NCBI RefSeq assembly: GCF_024464185.1
Contig: NZ_JANHAU010000002.1
Location: 310,001-374,000 of the forward strand
Length of the DNA stretch: 64,000 nucleotides
Direction: 5' to 3'
DNA from: Haloarchaeobius salinus
GTDB taxonomy: Archaea; Halobacteriota; Halobacteria; Halobacteriales; Natrialbaceae
Below the pieces are notes generated by a model that did no database searches, had not been told where the DNA came from, and saw only the letters and a program-made list of their open reading frames with translations. Below are positions 29,938 to 40,989 of this stretch, one piece after another; the stretch's first letter is position 1; each line of letters starts with the position of its first letter. Position numbers and translations under genes: made by a program.

Positions 29938-31116
29938 TCAGTCCACCTCCTCCGTGCCGCCGGTGGTGTCGTCGAACACGCCGGAGTCGGTCGGTTCGAC
30001 GTCGGGAGCTGGCTCGTCGAAGAAGCCGTCGTCGACCGACGTGCCGTCGCGCTGTTCGGGTTCCGGTGCGGTCTGACTGGCGTCCGGTGCCGGGTCACCC
30101 GCCACCGCTGCACCGTCGTCGGCTCCCGCTGCGCTGGTGCCGAACGCGGTGTCGGGTTCGCCGTCGTCGAGGCCGTCGTCCCCGTCGAACCCGAAGCTGT
30201 CGTCGTCCGGAAGTGTCCAGTCGGCCTCGTCCTCCCAGCTGTCGTCGACGAACGAGAACCCGTCCTCGTCGCCGTCTTCGCCGCCGTCACCGTCGCCCGG
30301 CGAATCGGGGGCGGTCGCGGGCTGTCCCGTGTCGCCGCGTCGGGCGGTGAGCCAGAGCCCGGCGACGCCGAGGAACGAGAAGACGGCGGCGAACGCGGCC
30401 GTGAACGTCACCGGGTTCCGGAGCTGGAGGGCGACGTACACGGTGTACGGTGCCACCAGCAGGAGGATGCCGGTCGCGAGCGTGAGGTCCGTCGCCGTGA
30501 GGGTGACCTCGCCGTCGCCGTCGTCCGCATCGGCCTCCGTCACCGTCGCCGAGCCGGTGGTGGTCGCGCTCGTCGCGACGGTCCCGCCACCTCCGTCGGC
30601 CACGGTGCCTCCGTCACCGCCCTGCTTCCGGACGATGGCCCAGACCTCCGAGAGCCCGAGCAGCCCGAGCGGCAGGAGCACGAGCACGACGAAGCCGACC
30701 GGCCGCTGGGCGAACTGGATGACGTGGCCGATGTACGGGATGGTGACGGCCACCTCGCCGATGACGTTCCCGGCTGGTATCGGCTGGGAGTCGACGTCCT
30801 CGTTCGCGTCGCCCTTCGTCGTGAACACCGTGGTGTCGCCGCGCTCCTCCACCCCGACGACGCGGTGGGTCACCGGCTTGTCGCCCTCGCCCCTGACGAA
30901 GGTGACGACGTCACCCTCCTCGATGGCCGCGGTCGGGCGCTCGTCGACGATGACCACGTCCCCGGGGGAGATCTCTGGCTCCATGCTGCCCGAGAGCACC
31001 ACGAAGCTGTGGTCCGCGCCGACGGCCCCGGGGAAGGCGTAGACGACGAACGGCACGACGACCACGACGAGCACGAGCAGCCCGAGGACGTGCAGGATGC
31101 GCCTCGCGTCCACCAT
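29938..31116 (-). CDS. Archaeal SipW-type signal peptidase I with long acidic tail
   Basis: A 392-residue membrane protease. A first helix (about 8-28) precedes the catalytic serine S44 in SGSMEP; the second catalytic residue is histidine H84 in VTHRVV, replacing lysine as in archaeal and ER-type/SipW enzymes. KGDANEDVD is the conserved box D/E. A helix follows near 140-160, and two more helices near 225-265. The final 110 residues are a long acidic tail, unusual for the family. The gene shares one base with the SipW-type protein upstream and abuts the small repeat protein downstream. It is probably dedicated to processing the SipW-type proteins of this locus. Confidence 0.88.
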   Translation of the reverse strand: MVDARRILHVLGLLVLVVVVVPFVVYAFPGAVGADHSFVVLSGSMEPEISPGDVVIVDERPTAAIEEGDVVTFVRGEGDKPVTHRVVGVEERGDTTVFTTKGDANEDVDSQPIPAGNVIGEVAVTIPYIGHVIQFAQRPVGFVVLVLLPLGLLGLSEVWAIVRKQGGDGGTVADGGGGTVATSATTTGSATVTEADADDGDGEVTLTATDLTLATGILLLVAPYTVYVALQLRNPVTFTAAFAAVFSFLGVAGLWLTARRGDTGQPATAPDSPGDGDGGEDGDEDGFSFVDDSWEDEADWTLPDDDSFGFDGDDGLDDGEPDTAFGTSAAGADDGAAVAGDPAPDASQTAPEPEQRDGTSVDDGFFDEPAPDVEPTDSGVFDDTTGGTEEVD

Positions 31117-33032: not shown

Positions 33033-33036
33033 TCAA
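32902..33036 (-). CDS. Possible small ORF overlapping the end of the 33033 gene
   Basis: A 44-residue frame with a TTG start overlapping the stop of the upstream gene. It reads TEQQWRRQRGT then GGNVALDPVTESVLTESADF and ends in an acidic tail. Composition is protein-like and the overlap would allow coupled translation. It may instead be the out-of-frame remnant of another paralogue's C-terminus. No family is recognised. Confidence 0.25.
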   Translation of the reverse strand: MTEQQWRRQRGTSGGNVALDPVTESVLTESADFESFESDPTASP

Positions 33037-33785
33037 CTACCGTCGTCGTGGCGGCACTGCTCGGTGTACAAGCCGAGGTCGAACACGACACCGTCCGACT
33101 GGGTCACGTTGACGTCGCGGGGGTCGGCGTCCCCGTCGAACGACCAGGCCAGGACGAACCCGATCGAGTCGTCGCCGGACAGGCAGGAATCGCTCGTTGG
33201 GCCTCCCTCCGCAGGGTCGAGTAGCGTCGGCGTCGAGAGGGCAGTAGCCACCGACGTGAGCGACCCGTTCGCGTCGGGGTGGACGAGCGACTCGCCAACG
33301 TCCTGGATCCCGTTCTCCGCACCGAACGCGTCGAAACCTCGAAGGCCGGTGTCGTACCAGAGCGAGACGGTCAGGAACTCCTGTAGCTCCCCTCGCTCGG
33401 GAGTGTCGTCGAGGCTCGCCTCGGAATCGTTTATGCCGTTCTCCGGGGTCGCAGCCAGGTCGAGTGAGAGGAACGGCTGGACGGCGACGTCCTCCGACGT
33501 GTCGTCGAGCCGGAGCCTGATGCTCAGTGATCCCCTGTCGCCGGGGAGCACGTTCGAGACGGCTAGCCGTGGCCCGGTCTCCGTTCCGGTCACGGTCGTC
33601 CCGCCGTCGACAGTCGTCCCGTTGTACGTCTCCCGCCAGTCGTACCGAAGGGGTGTCGATGCGAGCGCCGTTGAGTCCGGGTACGCCTTCGCTCCCTCGG
33701 TCAGCAGGGCGAGCCCACCGACCGAGGCGACACCGGTGGCTCCGAGTCCGGCGAGCAACCGTCTGCGATTGAGTCGTTCTATCAT
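33033..33785 (-). CDS. SipW-dependent-type secreted protein, minimal paralogue
   Basis: A 250-residue protein, last of five tandem paralogues. It has a twin-arginine start (NRRRLLAGLGATGVASVGGLALL) and lacks the usual SAYFSDTE cleavage motif, having TEGAKAYPDS instead. The mature part is a single SipW-type domain: VLPGDRGSLSIRLRLDD, LTVSLWYDTGLRGFD and the terminal motif FDLGLYTEQCRHDDGS. It has no inserted domain, so it shows the core fold of the family. A tRNA-like element precedes it by 18 bases. Confidence 0.8.
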   Translation of the reverse strand: MIERLNRRRLLAGLGATGVASVGGLALLTEGAKAYPDSTALASTPLRYDWRETYNGTTVDGGTTVTGTETGPRLAVSNVLPGDRGSLSIRLRLDDTSEDVAVQPFLSLDLAATPENGINDSEASLDDTPERGELQEFLTVSLWYDTGLRGFDAFGAENGIQDVGESLVHPDANGSLTSVATALSTPTLLDPAEGGPTSDSCLSGDDSIGFVLAWSFDGDADPRDVNVTQSDGVVFDLGLYTEQCRHDDGS

Positions 33786-33803: not shown

Positions 33804-33869
33804 GACCGACCACCGGAGTCGAACCGCCGCCGTCCGGGGTGTGTGCCCGGACGAGCACCGACGTGGGTC
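33804..33869 (-). ncRNA. tRNA-like intergenic element, copy D
   Basis: 66 nt between the stop at 33882 and the start at 33785. Closing stem GACCCAC/GTCGGTC has one mismatch. The linker contains CGG. A perfect 8-bp hairpin follows, CGTCCGGG/CCCGGACG with loop CACACAC. The T-arm is CGGCGG/CCGGTG with loop TTCGACT (one mismatch). It is the most divergent copy in sequence yet keeps the whole layout. It could act as RNA in the mRNA or as a DNA structure. Confidence 0.5.
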
Positions 33870-33881
33870 TACCGCCTGCAG

Positions 33882-35489
33882 TCACTCGGTCGTCGGTGCC
33901 TCGGTCGTACCGTCCGGCCCACTCCCGTCGTTGTGTCGGCACTGCTCGGTGTAGAAGCCGAGATCGAAGGTGGTCGTGTCACCCTGGATGACGTTGCCGA
34001 CGTCCGTCGAGACCTCCCACTCGAAGCCGACACAGAAGCCGGCTTCGGCGGGGAAGCACTCAACGTCCCCGGTATCCGGTTCGGCGTCCAGCTGGAGCAT
34101 CCCCTCGAAGCCCTCGTCGCCCTCCTCGGCGTCCTCTTCGACACCGAGATTCTCCATCAGTTGGGCGAGGGTCCCTGCGAAGATCTCCGTCTCCTCTTCG
34201 TCGTAGAGGTTGTCGCAGTCCTCGTCGTACCAGAGAGTCACGTCGACGTTCTCGGCGAGGTCCGCGTCGTTATCGGCGTCACCCTCAGCGACCTGCTCGG
34301 GCTCGGGGTTCGCGCCGCCGTCCTGTGAGAAGCCGGCGGCGGTGAACCAGACGTATCCAGGGTTGTCACATAGGTGCAGCGAGAACGTTATCTCTCCACT
34401 GTCTCCCGGTTTCACGTCGTCGAGTTCGATGAGGTGCTCTTGGTCGGGGTAGTTCTCGCTCTGGAAGACTGCGGGCGTCTCCAGTTGCGAGCCGCTGTCG
34501 ATCCCGCAGGAACTGTGGATGGTGATCGAATCGAGGTCACCGTCGGTTCCGACAGTATCTTCGAGGACTACCTCTGTGGACGTATCTCCGTCAAGGAGCA
34601 CCAATCGTTCGATGTCAGTCTGATCTTGGAAGACCGAGTTTCCATCGTACGTAGCTGCATCGTTCAACGCCGGAGTAACCCGTAGAGCGAAGTCTTCGTC
34701 CAACGTACCGAGAACGCCGCCGTCGGTTTTTCGATTCTGCCAGGCCCAGTCAGCCATCGCGACGTTGCTCCCATTGGCGTTCTGATAGGTGTCGATGTCG
34801 GTGCCAGGTTCATCCTGACCGACCCACGCTGCGTTTAACCACTGGTTTCCCTCAGCACCTTCGACAGTGACTGAAGCGACGAACCCATTATCCGAGCTTC
34901 TGGTGTTGTCGAGTTGATTATGGATAATGAAAAGGTGGAGGTCACCTTCATCATCCTCGTACAGGAAGAGAACAGTCGTGTTCCGTCGCTGAATGTCACT
35001 GTTCAGTGACGACCATTCCCCCGTATCGTAATCGTAGAACTCCTCTACGCTTTCGTCCTCCGAGATTGCGCTGATACAGTACGATTCGCCAGCGTAGGTG
35101 ACGTAGTACTCGTCTTCGTCACAGTCACAGCAGGCGGGGACCTCGGCAGCGTTGAACACCGGGTCGGTCTCGCCCGCGCCGGAGTAGTTGACGCCGTCGA
35201 GATCCTGGAGACCGTCGCCATACGTTTCCTCCCCGACTGCACTATCCGGGTAGGCGTTCACCGGGTGCTCTCCGACCTCACCCCCACTGCTGGGAATCGG
35301 CCCGTTATAGGTCTGCTGCCAGTCCACCTTGAGGTCGAGCTCGCCGGCAGCCATGGTGTTGCCGTCGAACGATTCGGTGTCGCTGAAGTACGCGCTCGTT
35401 CCCATGCCAGCACCGACGCTGGCGACGCCCGCCGCGCCGATGCCGGCCAGTATCTTCCGCCGTGACAGTTCGATATCCTTTCTCGTCAT
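33882..35489 (-). CDS. SipW-dependent-type secreted protein with N-terminal-half insertion
   Basis: A 535-residue paralogue. Signal region SRRKILAGIGAAGVASVGAG ends at TSAYFSDTES, combining a twin-arginine start with the SipW cleavage motif. A unique insertion of about 200 residues (roughly 85-290) begins with a CCDC cluster and YYVTYAGESYCISAISEDES; I do not recognise it. The family core resumes with DVKPGDSGEITFSLHLCDNPGYVW and LWYDEDCDNLYDEEETEIFAGTLAQL. It ends DLGFYTEQCRHNDGSG plus a short Thr/Pro tail. The insertion is lower in GC than the core. Start at 35489 is set by alignment with the paralogues. Confidence 0.82.
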   Translation of the reverse strand: MTRKDIELSRRKILAGIGAAGVASVGAGMGTSAYFSDTESFDGNTMAAGELDLKVDWQQTYNGPIPSSGGEVGEHPVNAYPDSAVGEETYGDGLQDLDGVNYSGAGETDPVFNAAEVPACCDCDEDEYYVTYAGESYCISAISEDESVEEFYDYDTGEWSSLNSDIQRRNTTVLFLYEDDEGDLHLFIIHNQLDNTRSSDNGFVASVTVEGAEGNQWLNAAWVGQDEPGTDIDTYQNANGSNVAMADWAWQNRKTDGGVLGTLDEDFALRVTPALNDAATYDGNSVFQDQTDIERLVLLDGDTSTEVVLEDTVGTDGDLDSITIHSSCGIDSGSQLETPAVFQSENYPDQEHLIELDDVKPGDSGEITFSLHLCDNPGYVWFTAAGFSQDGGANPEPEQVAEGDADNDADLAENVDVTLWYDEDCDNLYDEEETEIFAGTLAQLMENLGVEEDAEEGDEGFEGMLQLDAEPDTGDVECFPAEAGFCVGFEWEVSTDVGNVIQGDTTTFDLGFYTEQCRHNDGSGPDGTTEAPTTE

Positions 35490-35514
35490 CGTTGTATTCC
35501 CCCCCTCCGGGGAG

Positions 35515-35579
35515 GACCCACCGACGGAGTCGAACCGTCGACGCACGGGCGCGAACCCGGGCGTTCACCGGTGTGGGTC
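35515..35579 (-). ncRNA. tRNA-like intergenic element, copy A
   Basis: 65 nt, 13 bases after the upstream stop and 25 before the start at 35489. Closing stem GACCCAC/GTGGGTC (7 bp, perfect). Linker ACCGGTGA. Hairpin ACGC-C-CGGG / CCCG-T-GCGT with loop TTCGCG. T-arm CGACGG/CCGTCG (6 bp) with loop TTCGACT, matching the tRNA T-loop consensus. A second small hairpin (CTCCCC/GGGGAG-like) follows and overlaps the G-rich ribosome-binding region. Confidence 0.55.
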
Positions 35580-35592
35580 GTTGTTCGTCGTT

Positions 35593-37329
35593 CTATGCGG
35601 AGGTTTCACCGCTGCCGTCGTTGTGGCGGCACTGCTCGGTGTAGAAGCCGAGGTCGAAGCCGACCGAGTCGCTCTGGACTTCGTTGCCGACCTCCCGGGG
35701 GAGCCACCACGCGAAGCCGACGAAGTAGTTCACACCCGGATCGAAGCACTCCCGGTCGGGGTCGTCGGCCGGGTCGTTCAACTCGTCGAACTCCGTCGAC
35801 AGGTCCCCGTCGAGCGGGATGCCGTTCCCGTCGGCCAGCGCCTCCAGGTCGTCCGCGAGGGTCCCCCGGTGGAACACCTCCTCTTCCATGGCGACGTTCG
35901 CAAGGATGTCGTCGAGTATCGGCCCGATATCGCCGATGCTCTCCGCACTGTAGTAGTCCGCGTCCGCGCCCGAGATGTAGTCCCGGAGGTACGCCGAGAG
36001 CGTGGTGATAGAGTTCCCATCGCAGTCCTCCGCATCGGGGTTCCCCGTGATCGCCCCGTCATCGTCGATACCGACGGTGAGGATGCGGTGGTCTGCCCTG
36101 ATGTCGGCTGCGATGGTCGCGGTCTCACAGAGCTCCGCGTTCTCGACGATGGCGTTGCTCGAGTCGCCGTCGGCGTAAGGCCCTGGCGTGTACCCGCCGC
36201 CGATGGGGAACTCGTCGTACCCGGCGTTCGGGTAGTTCGGTCCGCCATCGCTGAAGACGATGATGAACGTCTCGGCGTCAGACCGGCCGTTGACGTCGAG
36301 TTCCTCGCGTGCGACGTCGAGCGCTGCGGGCATCGGCGTGTTCCCGTTCGCCTCGAGGTCGCTGAACATGGCCGGACCGTCGGCCAGGCTGGTGAAGTCC
36401 TCGACCATCCCACCCCCGAACGAGAGGCCACCGACTCTGGCGTTACCCGTGTCGTCCAGCGAGGTCGAGAGATCGTTCGCGAACCCCTCGAGCTGGTCCA
36501 GGTCCTCCTGGTCGAGTGACCCGGACGTGTCGACGGCGATCATCACGTCCACCTCGCCGATGGAGGAGTCGATGACGTTGTTCCCGTTCGTGTCGTACCA
36601 CCAGGCGGTCTGGATGTTCTCGGCGAGTTCGGGCTCCTCCGGCGAGTCGTCGACCTCGCTCTCGGGGTCGGTCAGTCCGTTCTCGGACTCCGAGACGTTC
36701 GCCGCCTGGAGCCAGACGTAGCCGGGGTTGTCACAGAGGTGGAAGCTCAGCGTGAACTCCCCGAAGTCGCCGGGCTTCACGTCGTCGAGACTGAGGAGGG
36801 GTTTGTAGTCCTCCTCCTCCTCGTTCCAGGTGTCGCCGTTGTCAGTTCTAAGTGCACCCTCAGCGCTTGGGTCGAGGTGCATCGGCAGGTCCGCACCGTG
36901 GTCGCACGGCCAGTAGGTGAATTCGTCGTTGTCCATCTCCTGTTGCCCGTCACCGTCCGGGTCCGGGAACGCCTCGATGGCGGTGTTGGCCATGTACGTC
37001 GGGATGTCGTCCTCGTGGACCCAGACGTGTGGGTTCTCCGGGTCCGGGAAGCCGACGTAGCCGTCGTCGCCGTCCGGTTCCTCGTACAGGATGTCGTAGT
37101 CGAGGCCGTTCGTCGGGTCTTCGAAGCCGAGCAGCTGGGGGTAGGCGTAGTGCTCCTCCCAGTCGACCTTCAGGTCGAGTTCGCCGGCCGCGATGGTGTT
37201 CCCGTCGAACGACTCGACGTCGTTGAAGTAGGCACTGGTCCCCAGGCCTGCGCCGACGCTGGCGACGCCCGCCGCGCCGATGCCGGCCAGTATCTTCCGC
37301 CGTGAAAGTCCGATGTTCTCGTTGCTCAT
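35593..37329 (-). CDS. SipW-dependent-type secreted protein with nested vWA domain
   Basis: A 578-residue paralogue. Signal region residues 9-40 end in TSAYFNDVES. The core is DVKPGDFGEFTLSFHLCDNPGYVW (about 183-206) and AWWYDTNGNNVID (about 242-254). A von Willebrand A domain then occupies about 259-480, with MIDAS motif D267-TSGS and later IIVFSDGGPN. The core resumes with VFHRGTLADDLEAL and ends GFYTEQCRHNDGSGETSA. The vWA domain should bind a divalent metal and a ligand on other cells or surfaces, which suggests adhesion. Confidence 0.88.
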   Translation of the reverse strand: MSNENIGLSRRKILAGIGAAGVASVGAGLGTSAYFNDVESFDGNTIAAGELDLKVDWEEHYAYPQLLGFEDPTNGLDYDILYEEPDGDDGYVGFPDPENPHVWVHEDDIPTYMANTAIEAFPDPDGDGQQEMDNDEFTYWPCDHGADLPMHLDPSAEGALRTDNGDTWNEEEEDYKPLLSLDDVKPGDFGEFTLSFHLCDNPGYVWLQAANVSESENGLTDPESEVDDSPEEPELAENIQTAWWYDTNGNNVIDSSIGEVDVMIAVDTSGSLDQEDLDQLEGFANDLSTSLDDTGNARVGGLSFGGGMVEDFTSLADGPAMFSDLEANGNTPMPAALDVAREELDVNGRSDAETFIIVFSDGGPNYPNAGYDEFPIGGGYTPGPYADGDSSNAIVENAELCETATIAADIRADHRILTVGIDDDGAITGNPDAEDCDGNSITTLSAYLRDYISGADADYYSAESIGDIGPILDDILANVAMEEEVFHRGTLADDLEALADGNGIPLDGDLSTEFDELNDPADDPDRECFDPGVNYFVGFAWWLPREVGNEVQSDSVGFDLGFYTEQCRHNDGSGETSA

Positions 37330-37348
37330 TGTACCCCCCTCCGGGGAG

Positions 37349-37413
37349 GACCCACCGACGGAGTCGAACCGTCGACGCGCGGATGTGATACCGAGCGTTC
37401 ACCGGTGTGGGTC
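37349..37413 (-). ncRNA. tRNA-like intergenic element, copy B
   Basis: 65 nt, 14 bases after the upstream stop and 19 before the start at 37329. Closing stem GACCCAC/GTGGGTC. Linker ACCGGTGA. Hairpin ACGC-T-CGG / CCG-C-GCGT with loop TATCACAT. T-arm CGACGG/CCGTCG with loop TTCGACT. It shares stem and T-arm sequences with copy A but differs through the variable hairpin. A hairpin CTCC-CC-GGAGG follows and would mask the GGAGGGG ribosome-binding site. Confidence 0.55.
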
Positions 37414-37427
37414 GTGGTCGCCGTCCG

Positions 37428-39095
37428 TTACGTCGCTGCTATGTTGTCGTTGTTTTCGCCGTTCTCGTCGCTCTGCCCGCTACCGTCGTTGTGGCGGCAC
37501 TGCTCGGTGTAGAAGCCGAGATCGAAGCTCACGGTGTCGGACTGGACTTCGTTGCCCACCTCGGTGGGGAGCCACCACGAGAAGCCAATGCAGTTGGTCT
37601 CGGGTGTCGGCTCGAAGCAACCCCGTTCGGAAGCGTCGGGCTCGTCCTCCAGTTCGTCGAAGTCGTCGCCGCCGTCGCCGTCCAGCGGGATACCGTTGTC
37701 TGCGCTGAGTGCGTCCAGTGCGCTTGCGAGATTCCCTTGGAAGAAGATCTCCTCGCCACTCGACGATATCTCGCCACCGATGTCGTCGAAGGCGTCTTCG
37801 ACCTCCGACTGGGTCGGTGCGTCGAAGAAGTACGTGCTGTCGGGGTCACTCGCGATTTCTTGCATGACGCTGTCATCAGCATCGTCCCCGTACGCGATTG
37901 CGTAGATATCTGCAGGGATATTTTTCACTGCCTGGGCTTCGGTACTGTAGTCCCCACCGCTGCTTCCGTTGGACAGGAAGACCATCACCTTCTGTGCGCC
38001 AGAACGGTGCCCGCCGCTCGCCGTGATCTGGGGGGAAACGTCGTTCCCGGTCAGTTCCTCGTTACCCGCATTTAGCGCGTCCGAGAAGTCGGTCCCTCCG
38101 CCAGCAGTCAGACCATCGACAGCAGTCTCGATGTCGGAGTAATCTGTCGTCAGGCCCTGTTGAAGGTACGCACTGGAGTCGAACGAGACCAGGCCGACCT
38201 TCGTTCCGGGGTTCGAGAGGACTTCGGAAGCGAGCGCTTTGGCACCGTTCTTGGCGGCATCGAACTTTCCAGTCTCGAAATCCATCGACCCGGACTCGTC
38301 CAGCACGATGACGACGTCGACTTCCTCAGTGGTACCTCCGGAGCCGCTGTCGACCAGATTGTCACAGTCGTCGTCGTACCACAGGGCCGTCTGGATGTTC
38401 TCGACGAGTTCCACGACACCCTCCTCCTCGTCCTCGCTTTCGCCCTCGGGTTCGGTAACGCCGTTCTCGGAGGCGTCGACGTTCGCCGCTTGCATCCAGA
38501 CGTAGCCCGGGTTGTTGCAGAGATGGAAGCTCAGCGTGACCTCGCCGAAGTCGCCGGGTTTGACGTCTTCGAGTTCGATCAGCGGGTCCCCAGGTTCAGT
38601 CGCCGCGTTCTCCGTCCGGGAATCCGAGCTGAGCCCGCCGCTCTCGCCACCGACGTCAGCGAGCACGTCACAGGCGTCCTCCTCGTCGAACTCGTCCTGG
38701 ATTCCGTCGTCGTCCTCGTCGGGGAACGCCTCGATGGACGTGTTGTCCATGTACGCGGGCACGTCGTCGTTGTGGACGTACAGGAGCGGGTCGTAATCGC
38801 TCGTGGCCTCGACCCCCGGCGGGAACGCCGTGTAGTTCTCTGGATCCTCGGGATCTATCGTGACGTCCAGCCCGTCGGTCGGATCACCCATATCGTAGAG
38901 CTGTGGGTAGTTGTAGTGCTCTTCCCAGTCGACCTTCATGTCGAGCGAGCCTGCAGTGAGCGTGTTCCCCTCGAACGACTCGGTGTCGCTGAAGTACGCG
39001 CTAGTCCCCAGCCCTGCGCCGACGCTCGCGACGCCCGCTGCGCCGATGCCGGCCAGTATCTTCCGCCGTGAGAGTGCGATTGGTTTCTCTGACAT
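37428..39095 (-). CDS. SipW-dependent-type secreted protein with nested vWA domain (second)
   Basis: A 555-residue paralogue of the 35593 product. Signal region ends TSAYFSDTES. The core has DVKPGDFGEVTLSFHLCNNPGYVW and ALWYDDDCDNLVD. The vWA domain (about 258-455) has a canonical MIDAS DESGSM (266-271), the threonine region GGGTDFSDAL and VMVFLSNGSSGG. The core resumes with IFFQGNLASALDAL and ends GFYTEQCRHNDGSGQ plus an Asn/Asp-rich tail. The vWA part is lower in GC and differs greatly from its neighbour's, whereas the flanking core is well conserved. Start at 39095 by alignment. Confidence 0.88.
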   Translation of the reverse strand: MSEKPIALSRRKILAGIGAAGVASVGAGLGTSAYFSDTESFEGNTLTAGSLDMKVDWEEHYNYPQLYDMGDPTDGLDVTIDPEDPENYTAFPPGVEATSDYDPLLYVHNDDVPAYMDNTSIEAFPDEDDDGIQDEFDEEDACDVLADVGGESGGLSSDSRTENAATEPGDPLIELEDVKPGDFGEVTLSFHLCNNPGYVWMQAANVDASENGVTEPEGESEDEEEGVVELVENIQTALWYDDDCDNLVDSGSGGTTEEVDVVIVLDESGSMDFETGKFDAAKNGAKALASEVLSNPGTKVGLVSFDSSAYLQQGLTTDYSDIETAVDGLTAGGGTDFSDALNAGNEELTGNDVSPQITASGGHRSGAQKVMVFLSNGSSGGDYSTEAQAVKNIPADIYAIAYGDDADDSVMQEIASDPDSTYFFDAPTQSEVEDAFDDIGGEISSSGEEIFFQGNLASALDALSADNGIPLDGDGGDDFDELEDEPDASERGCFEPTPETNCIGFSWWLPTEVGNEVQSDTVSFDLGFYTEQCRHNDGSGQSDENGENNDNIAAT

Positions 39096-39118
39096 CGTAT
39101 CTCCCCCCATACGGGGAA

Positions 39119-39185
39119 GACCCACCGGCGGAGTCGAACCGCCGTGGCATCGCAGATATCAGCGATACCGTGCTCCGAATGGGTC
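39119..39185 (-). ncRNA. tRNA-like intergenic element, copy C
   Basis: 67 nt, 13 bases after the upstream stop and 23 before the start at 39095. Closing stem GACCCAT/GTGGGTC (one G-U pair). Linker TCGGAGCAC. Hairpin GGTATCGC/GCGATGCC (8 bp) with loop TGATATCT. T-arm CGGCGG/CCGCCG with loop TTCGACT. Relative to copies A and B, an A-U pair in the T-stem is replaced by G-C and the variable hairpin has an unrelated sequence but intact pairing. Confidence 0.55.
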
Positions 39186-39198
39186 GGCCGCGGTTGGT

Positions 39199-40578
39199 TC
39201 AGTCGACGTGGACGTCCATCGCGACGTTCTCGCCGGTTGCGCCGGCGAACTCGATGTTCACGTCACCGGTGAGCGTCCAGTCGACGGTCGTGTCGACATC
39301 CGTGATGTGCAGGTGCGTGGGACTCGTTCCGTCACCGCTCGCGGAGACGCTTGTCGCACCGCTCGGCGAGGTCCCGTTGAGCATCACGTTGCTCACGTCG
39401 ACACTCGAGCCAGCAGTGTTGGCCTTCGCGGTAATCCCCAGTTCGTCGGCCGAGCCGTCGCCCGTCGACGCCTGGTCGTCCAGCCCGGTGTACGTCGCCG
39501 AGGAGAGCGACGAGCCGCCACTGTCGTACAGCGTGATCGTCCCCTCGTTCGCGTCCGAGTCGTATTCGACGGAGAACGAGCCCTCGAACGTGTCCGGCCA
39601 GTCGTACTGGTCCTGGTTGTAGTCACCGCCAGCAGCATTGTTTCCGATGTAGAGCTCGCCCTGTGCTGCGCCACCTCCGGGGCCATCGCCAGCCTTCAGG
39701 CGACCGAACCACGTCTCGGCCTCGTCGCCGAACTGGAACTTGCCCCAGTCCTCACCGCTGGTCGACGTGATACACGGGTTCACGTCGCCGTCGTTGTGGC
39801 GCGACTGCACCGCGACGAACGAGAAGTCGAACTCGACGGAGTCTGTCTGGATCTCGTTACCGACGTCGGTCGGGACCCACCACTCGACGCAGACGCAAGG
39901 ACCTGCCGTCTCGTTCGAGGACTCGACGCCCGGGAAGGGGCTCCGGTCGTCCTCCTCGAGGTCGCCGTCGAGTGCGACACCATTGTCGAGCTGGGACATG
40001 ACCTCCCCGAGCGTCCCTTCGAGGATGACGATCGGCTCCTCGTCGTCGTCGAGGATCGGGTCGCCGTCCTCGTCACAGTACGTCAGCGAGACCATCATCG
40101 CGTCGGCGAGTTCGCCCTCGCCGTCGATGTCCCCATCCGGGTCGTAATCGTTGTCCTCACCGTCCGCGTCGGCCTCCGGCTCAGTGACCGAGTTCTCGTC
40201 GTTGGCGGTAAGCTCCCCACACATCCACATCCACGCGGGGTTGTCGACGATGGAGAAGCAGAGTTCCCCTTCGCCGGAGTCCCCGGGCTTCAGGTCGTCC
40301 ACGTCGATGGTGAGCGCTTCACCGTCGGGGTCCTCGCCGAAGGTGTCGCCCTGGATGACGCCGTCGATTTCGTAGTCACCGTAGCTGCCCTGGTCCTCCT
40401 CGTAGTCCACGTGGACGTACAGGTCGAGCGAGCCAGCTTCGAGGATGTTTCCGACGAACGATTCTGTGTCGCTGAAGTACGCACTCGTACCGAGTCCTGC
40501 GCCCGCGGACGCGACGCCGATGGCACCGAGGCCACCGAGGACGCGCCGGCGCGACAGTCCGATTTTCTTGTCTGACAT
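39199..40578 (-). CDS. SipW-dependent-type secreted protein with C-terminal choice-of-anchor-like domain
   Basis: A 459-residue protein, first gene of the array. Signal region SRRRVLGGLGAIGVASAGAG ends TSAYFSDTES. The core has DLKPGDSGEGELCFSIVDNPAWMW and VSLTYCDEDGDPILDDDEEPIVILEGTLGEVM. The family motif appears as FSFVAVQSRHNDGDV at about 260, no longer terminal. It is followed by a beta-rich domain of about 185 residues (WGKFQFGDEAETWFGRLKAGDG, then GELYIGNNAAGGDYNQDQY) resembling choice-of-anchor-type surface domains. It may be the cap or anchor subunit of the assembly. Confidence 0.8.
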   Translation of the reverse strand: MSDKKIGLSRRRVLGGLGAIGVASAGAGLGTSAYFSDTESFVGNILEAGSLDLYVHVDYEEDQGSYGDYEIDGVIQGDTFGEDPDGEALTIDVDDLKPGDSGEGELCFSIVDNPAWMWMCGELTANDENSVTEPEADADGEDNDYDPDGDIDGEGELADAMMVSLTYCDEDGDPILDDDEEPIVILEGTLGEVMSQLDNGVALDGDLEEDDRSPFPGVESSNETAGPCVCVEWWVPTDVGNEIQTDSVEFDFSFVAVQSRHNDGDVNPCITSTSGEDWGKFQFGDEAETWFGRLKAGDGPGGGAAQGELYIGNNAAGGDYNQDQYDWPDTFEGSFSVEYDSDANEGTITLYDSGGSSLSSATYTGLDDQASTGDGSADELGITAKANTAGSSVDVSNVMLNGTSPSGATSVSASGDGTSPTHLHITDVDTTVDWTLTGDVNIEFAGATGENVAMDVHVD

Positions 40579-40989
40579 TGTAGTTTCCCCCCGAACCCCC
40601 CTCCAGCGGGGGCGTTCGGTTGTCGTTTACATGCAGAGATACCCCCGTAGTTATCCGTCACCACGTCACCGTTCAATCCCGGAATTGAGGTCGAGAGCGG
40701 CCTCGAACGGCGCGATACAGGTGGGTAAACGACCGCTTCCCCGAGCGGGGGCGGTCACGACCGACGACGGTCGGTGGTCGGCGGGGGTGTTATCAGACTC
40801 CTAAACACTCGATATCGGCCGACTGCGTCGGGGCGAACCAGCGTGTCAGAGCACCGATAACGTGTCATAAGTGGACACGTCGGATCACCCCCCGAAGTAC
40901 AACGCTCGCATACCGAACCCGTATGCTCCTCATGGTGACGGTGCTTCCACCCGTCGGACCGAACAGCAGACCCTGGGGAGGGGGGAGAT
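40579..40989. other. Divergent promoter region, SipW-type array and DUF7344-like gene
   Basis: No gene seen in these 410 bases. They hold the leader hairpin at 40591-40619 and must contain promoters for both directions. Short AT-rich stretches at about 40790-40815 and 40855-40875 are candidates, none convincing. A GGGGAGGGGGGAG ribosome-binding-like run lies at 40976-40988, directly before the ATG at 40990. Confidence 0.45.
40591..40619 (-). promoter_or_regulatory. Leader hairpin before the SipW-type array
   Basis: CCGAA-CG-CCCCC pairs with GGGGG-G-TTCGG around a short loop, 12 bases upstream of the start at 40578. It occupies the ribosome-binding region and resembles the G-rich hairpins that follow the tRNA-like elements, but no tRNA-like element is present here. 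Confidence 0.4.

Follow-up and report, generated by a model that had tools for sequence, protein, structure and literature searches.

tRNA-like elements before haloarchaeal SipW-type genes: candidate mRNA-borne t-elements

Introduction

What is a compact piece of tRNA architecture doing between protein-coding genes, and could it mark the places at which a polycistronic message is cut? The question is raised by contig NZ_JANHAU010000002.1 of Haloarchaeobius salinus, of which positions 310,001–374,000 of the forward strand (64,000 nt; the window, within which all positions below are counted) contain an array of genes with SipW-type signal peptides and four such elements. A first-pass annotation had described the elements as D-armless and tRNA-like, and had named cleavage by RNase P and/or tRNase Z as one reading and a DNA cruciform as another.

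The tRNA punctuation of mitochondrial polycistronic RNA relies on tRNA-shaped units that lie between the genes and show RNase P and tRNase Z where to cut. For archaea, a 2012 paper on t-elements is said to give 47 elements in Haloferax volcanii. The t-element located before the 5S rRNA (Hoelzle et al., 2008, RNA 14:928, as cited in PMC4326828, PMC3296008 and PMC7714728) is, according to the first two of these, an experimentally known substrate of tRNase Z and RNase P in H. volcanii. Furthermore, the artificial release of crRNA in this species uses flanking t-elements (PMC4326828, PMC4946936), and CRISPRi of the RNase P RNA gene has been described in it as well (PMC4946936). In the literature consulted, t-elements appear in two settings, upstream of 5S rRNA and, in one species, as a tool for the laboratory; that literature contained no paper linking SipW to haloarchaea and nothing usable on archaeal Taf fimbriae.

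Materials and methods

When MAFFT was given only the copies of this one genome, the acceptor strand came out split in the alignment, and the covariance model was therefore built on compact copies from many genera. The E values quoted for the four window elements are per genome.

Results and discussion

The array and its four elements

The array is encoded on the minus strand and begins with SipW-type gene 1 (39199–40578), which has a cognate_SipW signal and a choice-of-anchor W domain. The same signal is present in gene 2 (37428–39095) and gene 3 (35593–37329), both of which have a VWA domain, and in gene 4 (33882–35489); the last gene (33033–33785) is short, starts with an RR signal and has no family match. 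A signal peptidase I of the archaeal/SipW type on the same strand (29938–31116; TIGR02228, 6.6e-34; NF046067, 1.1e-31, below the NF046067 cut-off) is likely to be the processing enzyme of the array.

Four elements had been claimed on the minus strand, and all of them are there when the sequence is read directly: e4 at 39119–39185 between genes 1 and 2 (46.3 bits, E = 4.9e-8), e3 at 37349–37413 between genes 2 and 3 (54.1 bits, E = 4.4e-10), e2 at 35515–35579 between genes 3 and 4 (54.0 bits, E = 4.7e-10) and e1, a decayed copy, at 33804–33869 before the short last gene (28.5 bits, E = 0.0022). On the basis of these E values, a chance origin can be dismissed. The 7-bp closing (acceptor) stem and the 6-bp T-stem described for all copies are complete in the intact e2, e3 and e4 (7/7 and 6/6 pairs), whereas e1 retains 6/7 and 5/6 pairs. 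Likewise, the free folds of the three intact copies (−30 to −34.5 kcal/mol) recover the shared layout, in which closing stem, hairpin and T-arm meet at a three-way junction, but e1 folds differently. The variable hairpin has 8 bp in e4 and is weakest in e3 (ACGC/GCGT plus CGG/CCG). The T-loop reads TTCGACT in all four elements, and the linkers, in which a CGG had been noted, contain (A)CCGG, GTCGG or TCGG. The strict spacing was also reproduced, with 13, 14, 13 and 12 nt from stop codon to element and 23, 19, 25 and 18 nt from element to start codon. The model has no further match in the window, so the statement that no other junction of the locus carries an element stands.

tRNA mimicry and covariation

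The elements share with tRNA (RF00005) a 7-nt T-loop TTCRANT, closing G–C pairs, an acceptor stacked on the T-stem and a GG resembling G18–G19 of the D-loop; however, they are 41–67 nt long, have a 6-bp T-stem and lack a D-arm and usually an anticodon arm. They have the form of a t-element, in which the acceptor-like stem stacks on a T-arm, the T-loop follows the tRNA consensus and there is neither a D nor an anticodon arm. True tRNAs, which the annotation had wished to see excluded, were not detected by ARAGORN in the window, and the Rfam tRNA model is unmatched; the elements are not tRNA genes with a cloverleaf and an anticodon arm. No Rfam 15 family matches them at the gathering score, and at E ≤ 10 there is no match around three of the four. 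An intrinsic terminator, that is a stem-loop followed by a T run, was found at none of them.

The claim that pairing is kept while the sequence changes is borne out by strong covariation in the stems. In 29 sequences with 13 pairs, 97.9% of the cells are paired and 40 cells show double changes, compared with 8.1 in shuffles (none of 500 as high); among 144 hits, acceptor and T-stem positions change in concert. The T-loop is TTCGA[CT]T in 142 of the 144, and the linker GG, which had been thought able to dock on it, is present in 144/144, a figure partly shaped by the model because GG belongs to its consensus. Mimicry of a tRNA at the RNA level, with a D-armless layout, is supported. The outer two acceptor pairs are frequently mismatched, a feature that speaks against cutting.

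Distribution and gene association

The search of haloarchaeal genomes that had been proposed was positive for 230 of 391 Halobacteria genomes and 66 of 86 genera; numbers obtained at E ≤ 0.05 should be read as maxima, since some weak hits (∼24–30 bits) look like chance. A phylum-wide sample gave no element outside the order of the window. Halomicroarcula rubra and Halolamina rubra are culturable species with an array. Of the 144 best hits, 97 lie directly upstream of SipW-type signal-peptide genes (antisense control, 0/144), and most of the others precede genes for Taf fimbrial, DUF1102 or other twin-arginine secreted proteins. The orientation is always that of the gene's sense strand, the median distance to the start codon is 23 nt, and an ORF on the same strand ends within 150 nt upstream in 83 of the 97 cases, compared with 18% at random points. 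In a systematic sample of 40 genomes, 20 of 65 TIGR04088 genes carry the element at 68–139 nt, and 45 of the 65 have no detectable one; most of the latter look like first or single genes. A few are internal, an observation that weighs against cutting.

These data bear on two readings that assign the RNA no role. A DNA-level feature, either a cruciform or relics of the tRNA-type attachment sites at which recombination built the arrays, would suit the paralogy of the array genes, and tRNA T-arms are common integrase targets. However, in 66 genera the elements stand before genes that are single or have diverged, their distance to the start codon is fixed and their covariation is of the RNA type; the cruciform in particular is disfavored because the element is always on the sense strand and its loop and linker bases are conserved. 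We therefore regard a DNA-level origin as very improbable. Passive carriage by recent gene duplication, without a selected function, had been named beforehand as fatal to the proposal. The high similarity of e2 to e3 would agree with it, but the genes of these two are diverged (31–45% identity over aligned stretches), and from family to family the elements are retained while their stems change in a compensatory way. This reading fails because genes that have diverged are preceded by the element in as many as 66 genera, and hardly any credence is left to it.

Relationship to the 5S rRNA t-element

In the 40-genome sample, the model built on SipW-associated copies also detects a mini-tRNA before 5S rRNA, which starts within 5 nt of the match. 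These copies, which covary too, have a 5-bp acceptor followed by 3 nt (2 or 5 nt in boundary cases) and then the 5S rRNA; the 3-nt spacing matches N71–N73 and the tRNase Z site. Since the same covariance model finds the 5S rRNA t-element, the SipW-associated elements are classed, on the strength of the model, as mRNA-borne t-elements. The analysis demonstrates structure, conservation, covariation, gene association, identity of form with the 5S element and a hairpin abutting the element.

In both kinds, an acceptor and a T-arm make up a mini-tRNA whose short linker contains GG, and structured RNA lies directly 3′. In contrast to the H. volcanii 5S element, those described here separate protein-coding genes and stand upstream of SipW/Taf-type genes for secreted proteins, with an extra hairpin and then a start codon on their 3′ side; the acceptor is usually 7 bp and GACCCAC-like, and the linker sometimes has a hairpin insert. 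What is new is the association with SipW/Taf genes across the class, together with the second hairpin abutting the acceptor. In much of the haloarchaea, the mini-tRNA is a conserved part of the mRNAs that encode one class of secreted proteins that form fibres. Artificial crRNA release likewise relies on t-elements, in haloarchaeal cells, to trim a longer transcript to defined ends, but that system is engineered, whereas a natural polycistronic mRNA is proposed to use them here. Mitochondria use real tRNAs, whereas these elements lack an anticodon arm and, in the compact form, any third arm.

The 5S copies also bear on the idea of a binding site for a regulator or a tRNA-binding protein (a modification enzyme, synthetase or ribosomal protein) that would control a regulon without cutting. 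Such a site would fit the close association with a single class of genes for secreted structural proteins. However, the same fold occurs before 5S rRNA and is therefore not specific to a gene class, and no conserved bases other than the tRNA-like ones were seen in the elements examined, which makes this explanation improbable.

The abutting hairpin and the proposed cutting

The conserved hairpin just 3′ of the element was absent from the earlier description. In the window it is TTCCCC-GTAT-GGGGGG next to e4 (39101–39118) and CTCCCC-GGAG-GGGGGG next to e3 (37332–37348) and e2 (35498–35514), all on the minus strand, with approximate boundaries derived from the sequence and class-wide statistics; e1 has none. 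The G-rich arm of the e4 hairpin lies at Shine–Dalgarno distance upstream of the ATG. Among 78 short spacers, 68 have a second hairpin directly next to the acceptor, compared with 12.4 in shuffles (maximum 21), and the median distance of this hairpin to the start codon is 8 nt. The leader of the first SipW gene (CCCCCGCTGGAGGGGGG...ATG; 40576–40610, minus strand, approximate boundaries) has a similar hairpin without a tRNA-like element, as do some other first genes. In many copies, either the pairing of the hairpin extends all the way to the acceptor or the discriminator position is followed by CC; each might hinder tRNase Z and so argues against cutting.

The suggestion that the elements are RNase P/tRNase Z signals is likely to be correct, because one model also finds the 5S rRNA t-element, a known substrate. 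The sense-strand RNA would fold as a mini-tRNA in which an acceptor of 7 bp (5 bp or more) stacks on the 6-bp T-arm and a short GG-bearing linker, sometimes with the variable hairpin inserted, stands in for the D and anticodon arms. RNase P would most likely cut at the 5′ border of the element and tRNase Z on the 3′ side of the discriminator-like base, with the same geometry as before 5S rRNA. The cuts would split the message and give each downstream cistron a defined 5′ end, namely a terminal hairpin with its G-rich 3′ arm ∼8 nt before the start codon, so that internal cistrons would acquire leaders resembling those of first genes. We consider it probable that the elements are t-elements at which polycistronic SipW/fimbrial mRNA is cut, so that subunit levels can be set gene by gene; cleavage, how stable its products are and how it affects expression are inferred. 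The wider proposal, about equally easy to believe and to doubt, is that a dedicated, class-wide mRNA-cutting cassette of mini-tRNA, 5′-terminal hairpin and ribosome site travels with SipW/Taf genes as mitochondria-like punctuation that sets the subunit ratios of surface fibres. If cleaved, the elements would represent tRNA punctuation of mRNA in archaea, explain unequal product amounts from long fibre-subunit operons and supply many naturally occurring minimal substrates of RNase P and tRNase Z. An RNase P cut would strip the upstream mRNA of a 3′ protective structure, a consideration against cutting.

The second array and the compact form

The same genome has a second SipW array with four further elements. 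One of them sits in the 5′ leader of the first gene; the restriction to internal junctions therefore holds for the window array but not for the elements in general. One element lies ∼250 nt upstream of its gene.

These positions bear on translational control of an uncut message, in which the mini-tRNA and hairpin would stay in the mRNA, stop or compact the intercistronic stretch behind the upstream stop codon and gate the next start, the Shine–Dalgarno-like arm being held in the hairpin. The strict spacing after the stop codon in the window and before the start codon generally, the Shine–Dalgarno distance of the hairpin arm and the hairpins of first genes that have no element are all consistent with it. 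However, it leaves the retention of the tRNA T-arm, T-loop and GG linker unexplained, an identical module precedes the non-coding 5S rRNA, elements occur in first-gene leaders, and one lies ∼250 nt from its gene. We consider it unlikely, though it deserves some weight; cutting at t-elements is the preferred reading.

One second-array element was called as tRNA-Leu, at a place where the Rfam tRNA model has no match. The elements of this array are mostly compact, with a 7-bp acceptor, a GG linker of ∼10 nt and a 6-bp T-arm, and have no variable hairpin, which is an optional insert in the linker and not, as the earlier layout had it, a constant part.

The SipW-type array and its elements

Five consecutive minus-strand genes make up the SipW-type array. 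Each of the first four (40578-39199, 39095-37428, 37329-35593 and 35489-33882) carries a cognate_SipW signal (TIGR04088) and two of them have VWA domains; the last gene lies at 33785-33033 and a signal peptidase of the archaeal/SipW type is found downstream (31116-29938). The first-pass annotation had assigned one tRNA-like element to each of the four internal junctions, which the sequence bears out (39119-39185, 37349-37413, 35515-35579 and 33804-33869, all minus strand). The stem pairing that it described is complete in the first three of these (7/7 acceptor and 6/6 T-stem pairs), whereas the element at 33804-33869 (6/7 and 5/6) is decayed. Free folding of the three intact copies reproduced the closing stem, hairpin and T-arm of the proposed layout, and ARAGORN and Rfam searches of the window elements returned no tRNA and no known RNA family.

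Eighteen copies of the T-arm string are present in this genome, four of them in a second SipW array (contig C4, locus L009) with its own downstream signal peptidase. Three elements of this array are compact, consisting of GACCYGG, an 8-11 nt GG-bearing linker, a 6-bp T-stem (its outer pair mismatched in one case), TTCGACT and CCRGGTC. Since the middle hairpin is absent from all three, the variable hairpin seen in the window is an optional insert. One second-array element lies in the leader of the first gene and one ∼250 nt ahead of its gene. ARAGORN called a tRNA-Leu(cag) over one of these elements (L009:9161-9236, minus strand), which is a likely cause of spurious tRNA annotations in genomes of this kind.

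Distribution, covariation and anatomy

A gapped pattern matched 66 of 391 Halobacteria genomes, and the reversed pattern almost none. Alignment of 29 element sequences gave a clean two-helix structure with 97.9% of cells paired; double-change cells (40 versus 8.1 in shuffles) and covariation (0.369 versus 0.121) support the covarying stems claimed earlier, being far above shuffles. The covariance model matched 230 of the 391, representing 66 of 86 genera (E ≤ 0.01, the E-values being rough); in a phylum-wide sample of 295 genomes, 20 had a match, every one in the order of the window.

The model that ranked the matches had itself been trained on sequences like them, and percentages therefore describe the strongest members; paralogues and related genomes are not independent of one another. 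Among the 144 best matches, the T-loop is TTCGACT (n = 112) or TTCGATT (n = 30), and all 144 have GG within the opening bases of the linker (median linker 10 nt). The T-stem is anchored by its loop only and its pairs co-vary, the third being G-C in 99, A-T in 35, C-G in three and T-A in one. In the acceptor, the inner five pairs are kept and the outer two are variable. Together, the two stems (6 and 7 bp) form a 13-bp stack, one base pair longer than that of most tRNAs.

Gene context

A SipW-like signal peptide follows just 3' of 97 of the 144 best matches (own profile, E < 1e-3), and the antisense upstream control for the same matches yielded none. Most of the others precede TafE/TafA-like proteins (which start with RR or K/NRR plus GxGAFTS), TafF/DUF1102-like proteins or other RR-signal proteins; the Taf scores are under the curated cut-offs, and the likeness is therefore taken as relatedness, not membership. 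A same-strand ORF ends within 150 nt upstream of the element in 83 of 97 cases; for random points the figure was 177 of 970. Of the 65 TIGR04088 genes in 40 systematically sampled genomes, 20 had an element, located 68-139 nt ahead of the domain. Many SipW genes without an element look like first or single genes, several of which carry a hairpin of their own ahead of the ATG; in a few internal genes the element is missing or decayed.

Relation to the 5S rRNA t-element

Many weaker model matches in the 40-genome sample lie directly 5' of 5S rRNA. These copies share the mini-tRNA form and GG linker of the SipW elements. Covariation is present in them too: across 21 sequences, 100% of cells are paired and double-change cells number 34 versus 11.2. 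Their acceptor has only 5 bp, which fits the outer two SipW acceptor pairs being dispensable in many copies. The gap between acceptor and 5S is 3 nt, with 2 or 5 nt in the boundary cases, matching the position of tRNA N71-N73, and the 5S start thus falls at the tRNase Z site. In Haloferax volcanii, tRNase Z processing of the element before 5S makes the 5S 5' end, and t-elements in general serve as substrates for both RNase P and tRNase Z (PMC4326828; in agreement, PMC3296008 and PMC4946936). SipW/Taf gene leaders and 5S rRNA share one RNA structural class, and some of our elements may already figure among the H. volcanii t-elements catalogued in 2012.

Proposed processing and the second hairpin

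By analogy, we infer that the SipW elements would be cut on both sides, releasing a separate message for each gene. A 4-7 bp hairpin begins immediately after the acceptor and would cap the 5' end of each such message. It was found at nt 0-1 with an energy of ≤ -4 kcal/mol in 68 of 78 short spacers, compared with 12.4 (maximum 21) in shuffled spacers and 16 in coding pieces. Its end lies a median of 8 nt ahead of the start codon, a position at which the G-rich arm looks like a Shine-Dalgarno site. The main rival, an element that acts in translation and stays uncut, accounts for this second hairpin but leaves the kept tRNA features unexplained.

Other occurrences

Within the family of the window, three loci (L106 in G118, L126 in G241 and L151 in G164) have elements that share this fold, 46-57 nt long and with acceptors of the GACCCGC type, and small ORFs starting MAT... 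follow 2-4 nt after them. These ORFs have no SipW or Taf similarity and are a second, unrelated gene setting for the element. Three similar tRNA-like elements (AGCCCRC..CCCGGTTCGATTCCGGG..) lie close together on the minus strand of L208 (G300:C5; 1436-1483, 1828-1875 and 2796-2843), two of them preceding small ORFs starting MTDQ or MPD, and may represent another repeated t-element family. The genome of the window has an extra copy with a long linker insert (L181, G000:C1:1097480-1097568; 35.4 bits). Its downstream sequence is similar to the one that follows L082, an element of a congener with a DUF1102-like gene coming next. At L128 (G017:C1:2905966-2906012), a TATA-like stretch and a surface-glycoprotein-like gene (MNGKRFTAVIAALALVLSAFAAPGVFA) both lie downstream of the element, which may therefore end an upstream transcript rather than lead that of the glycoprotein-like gene.
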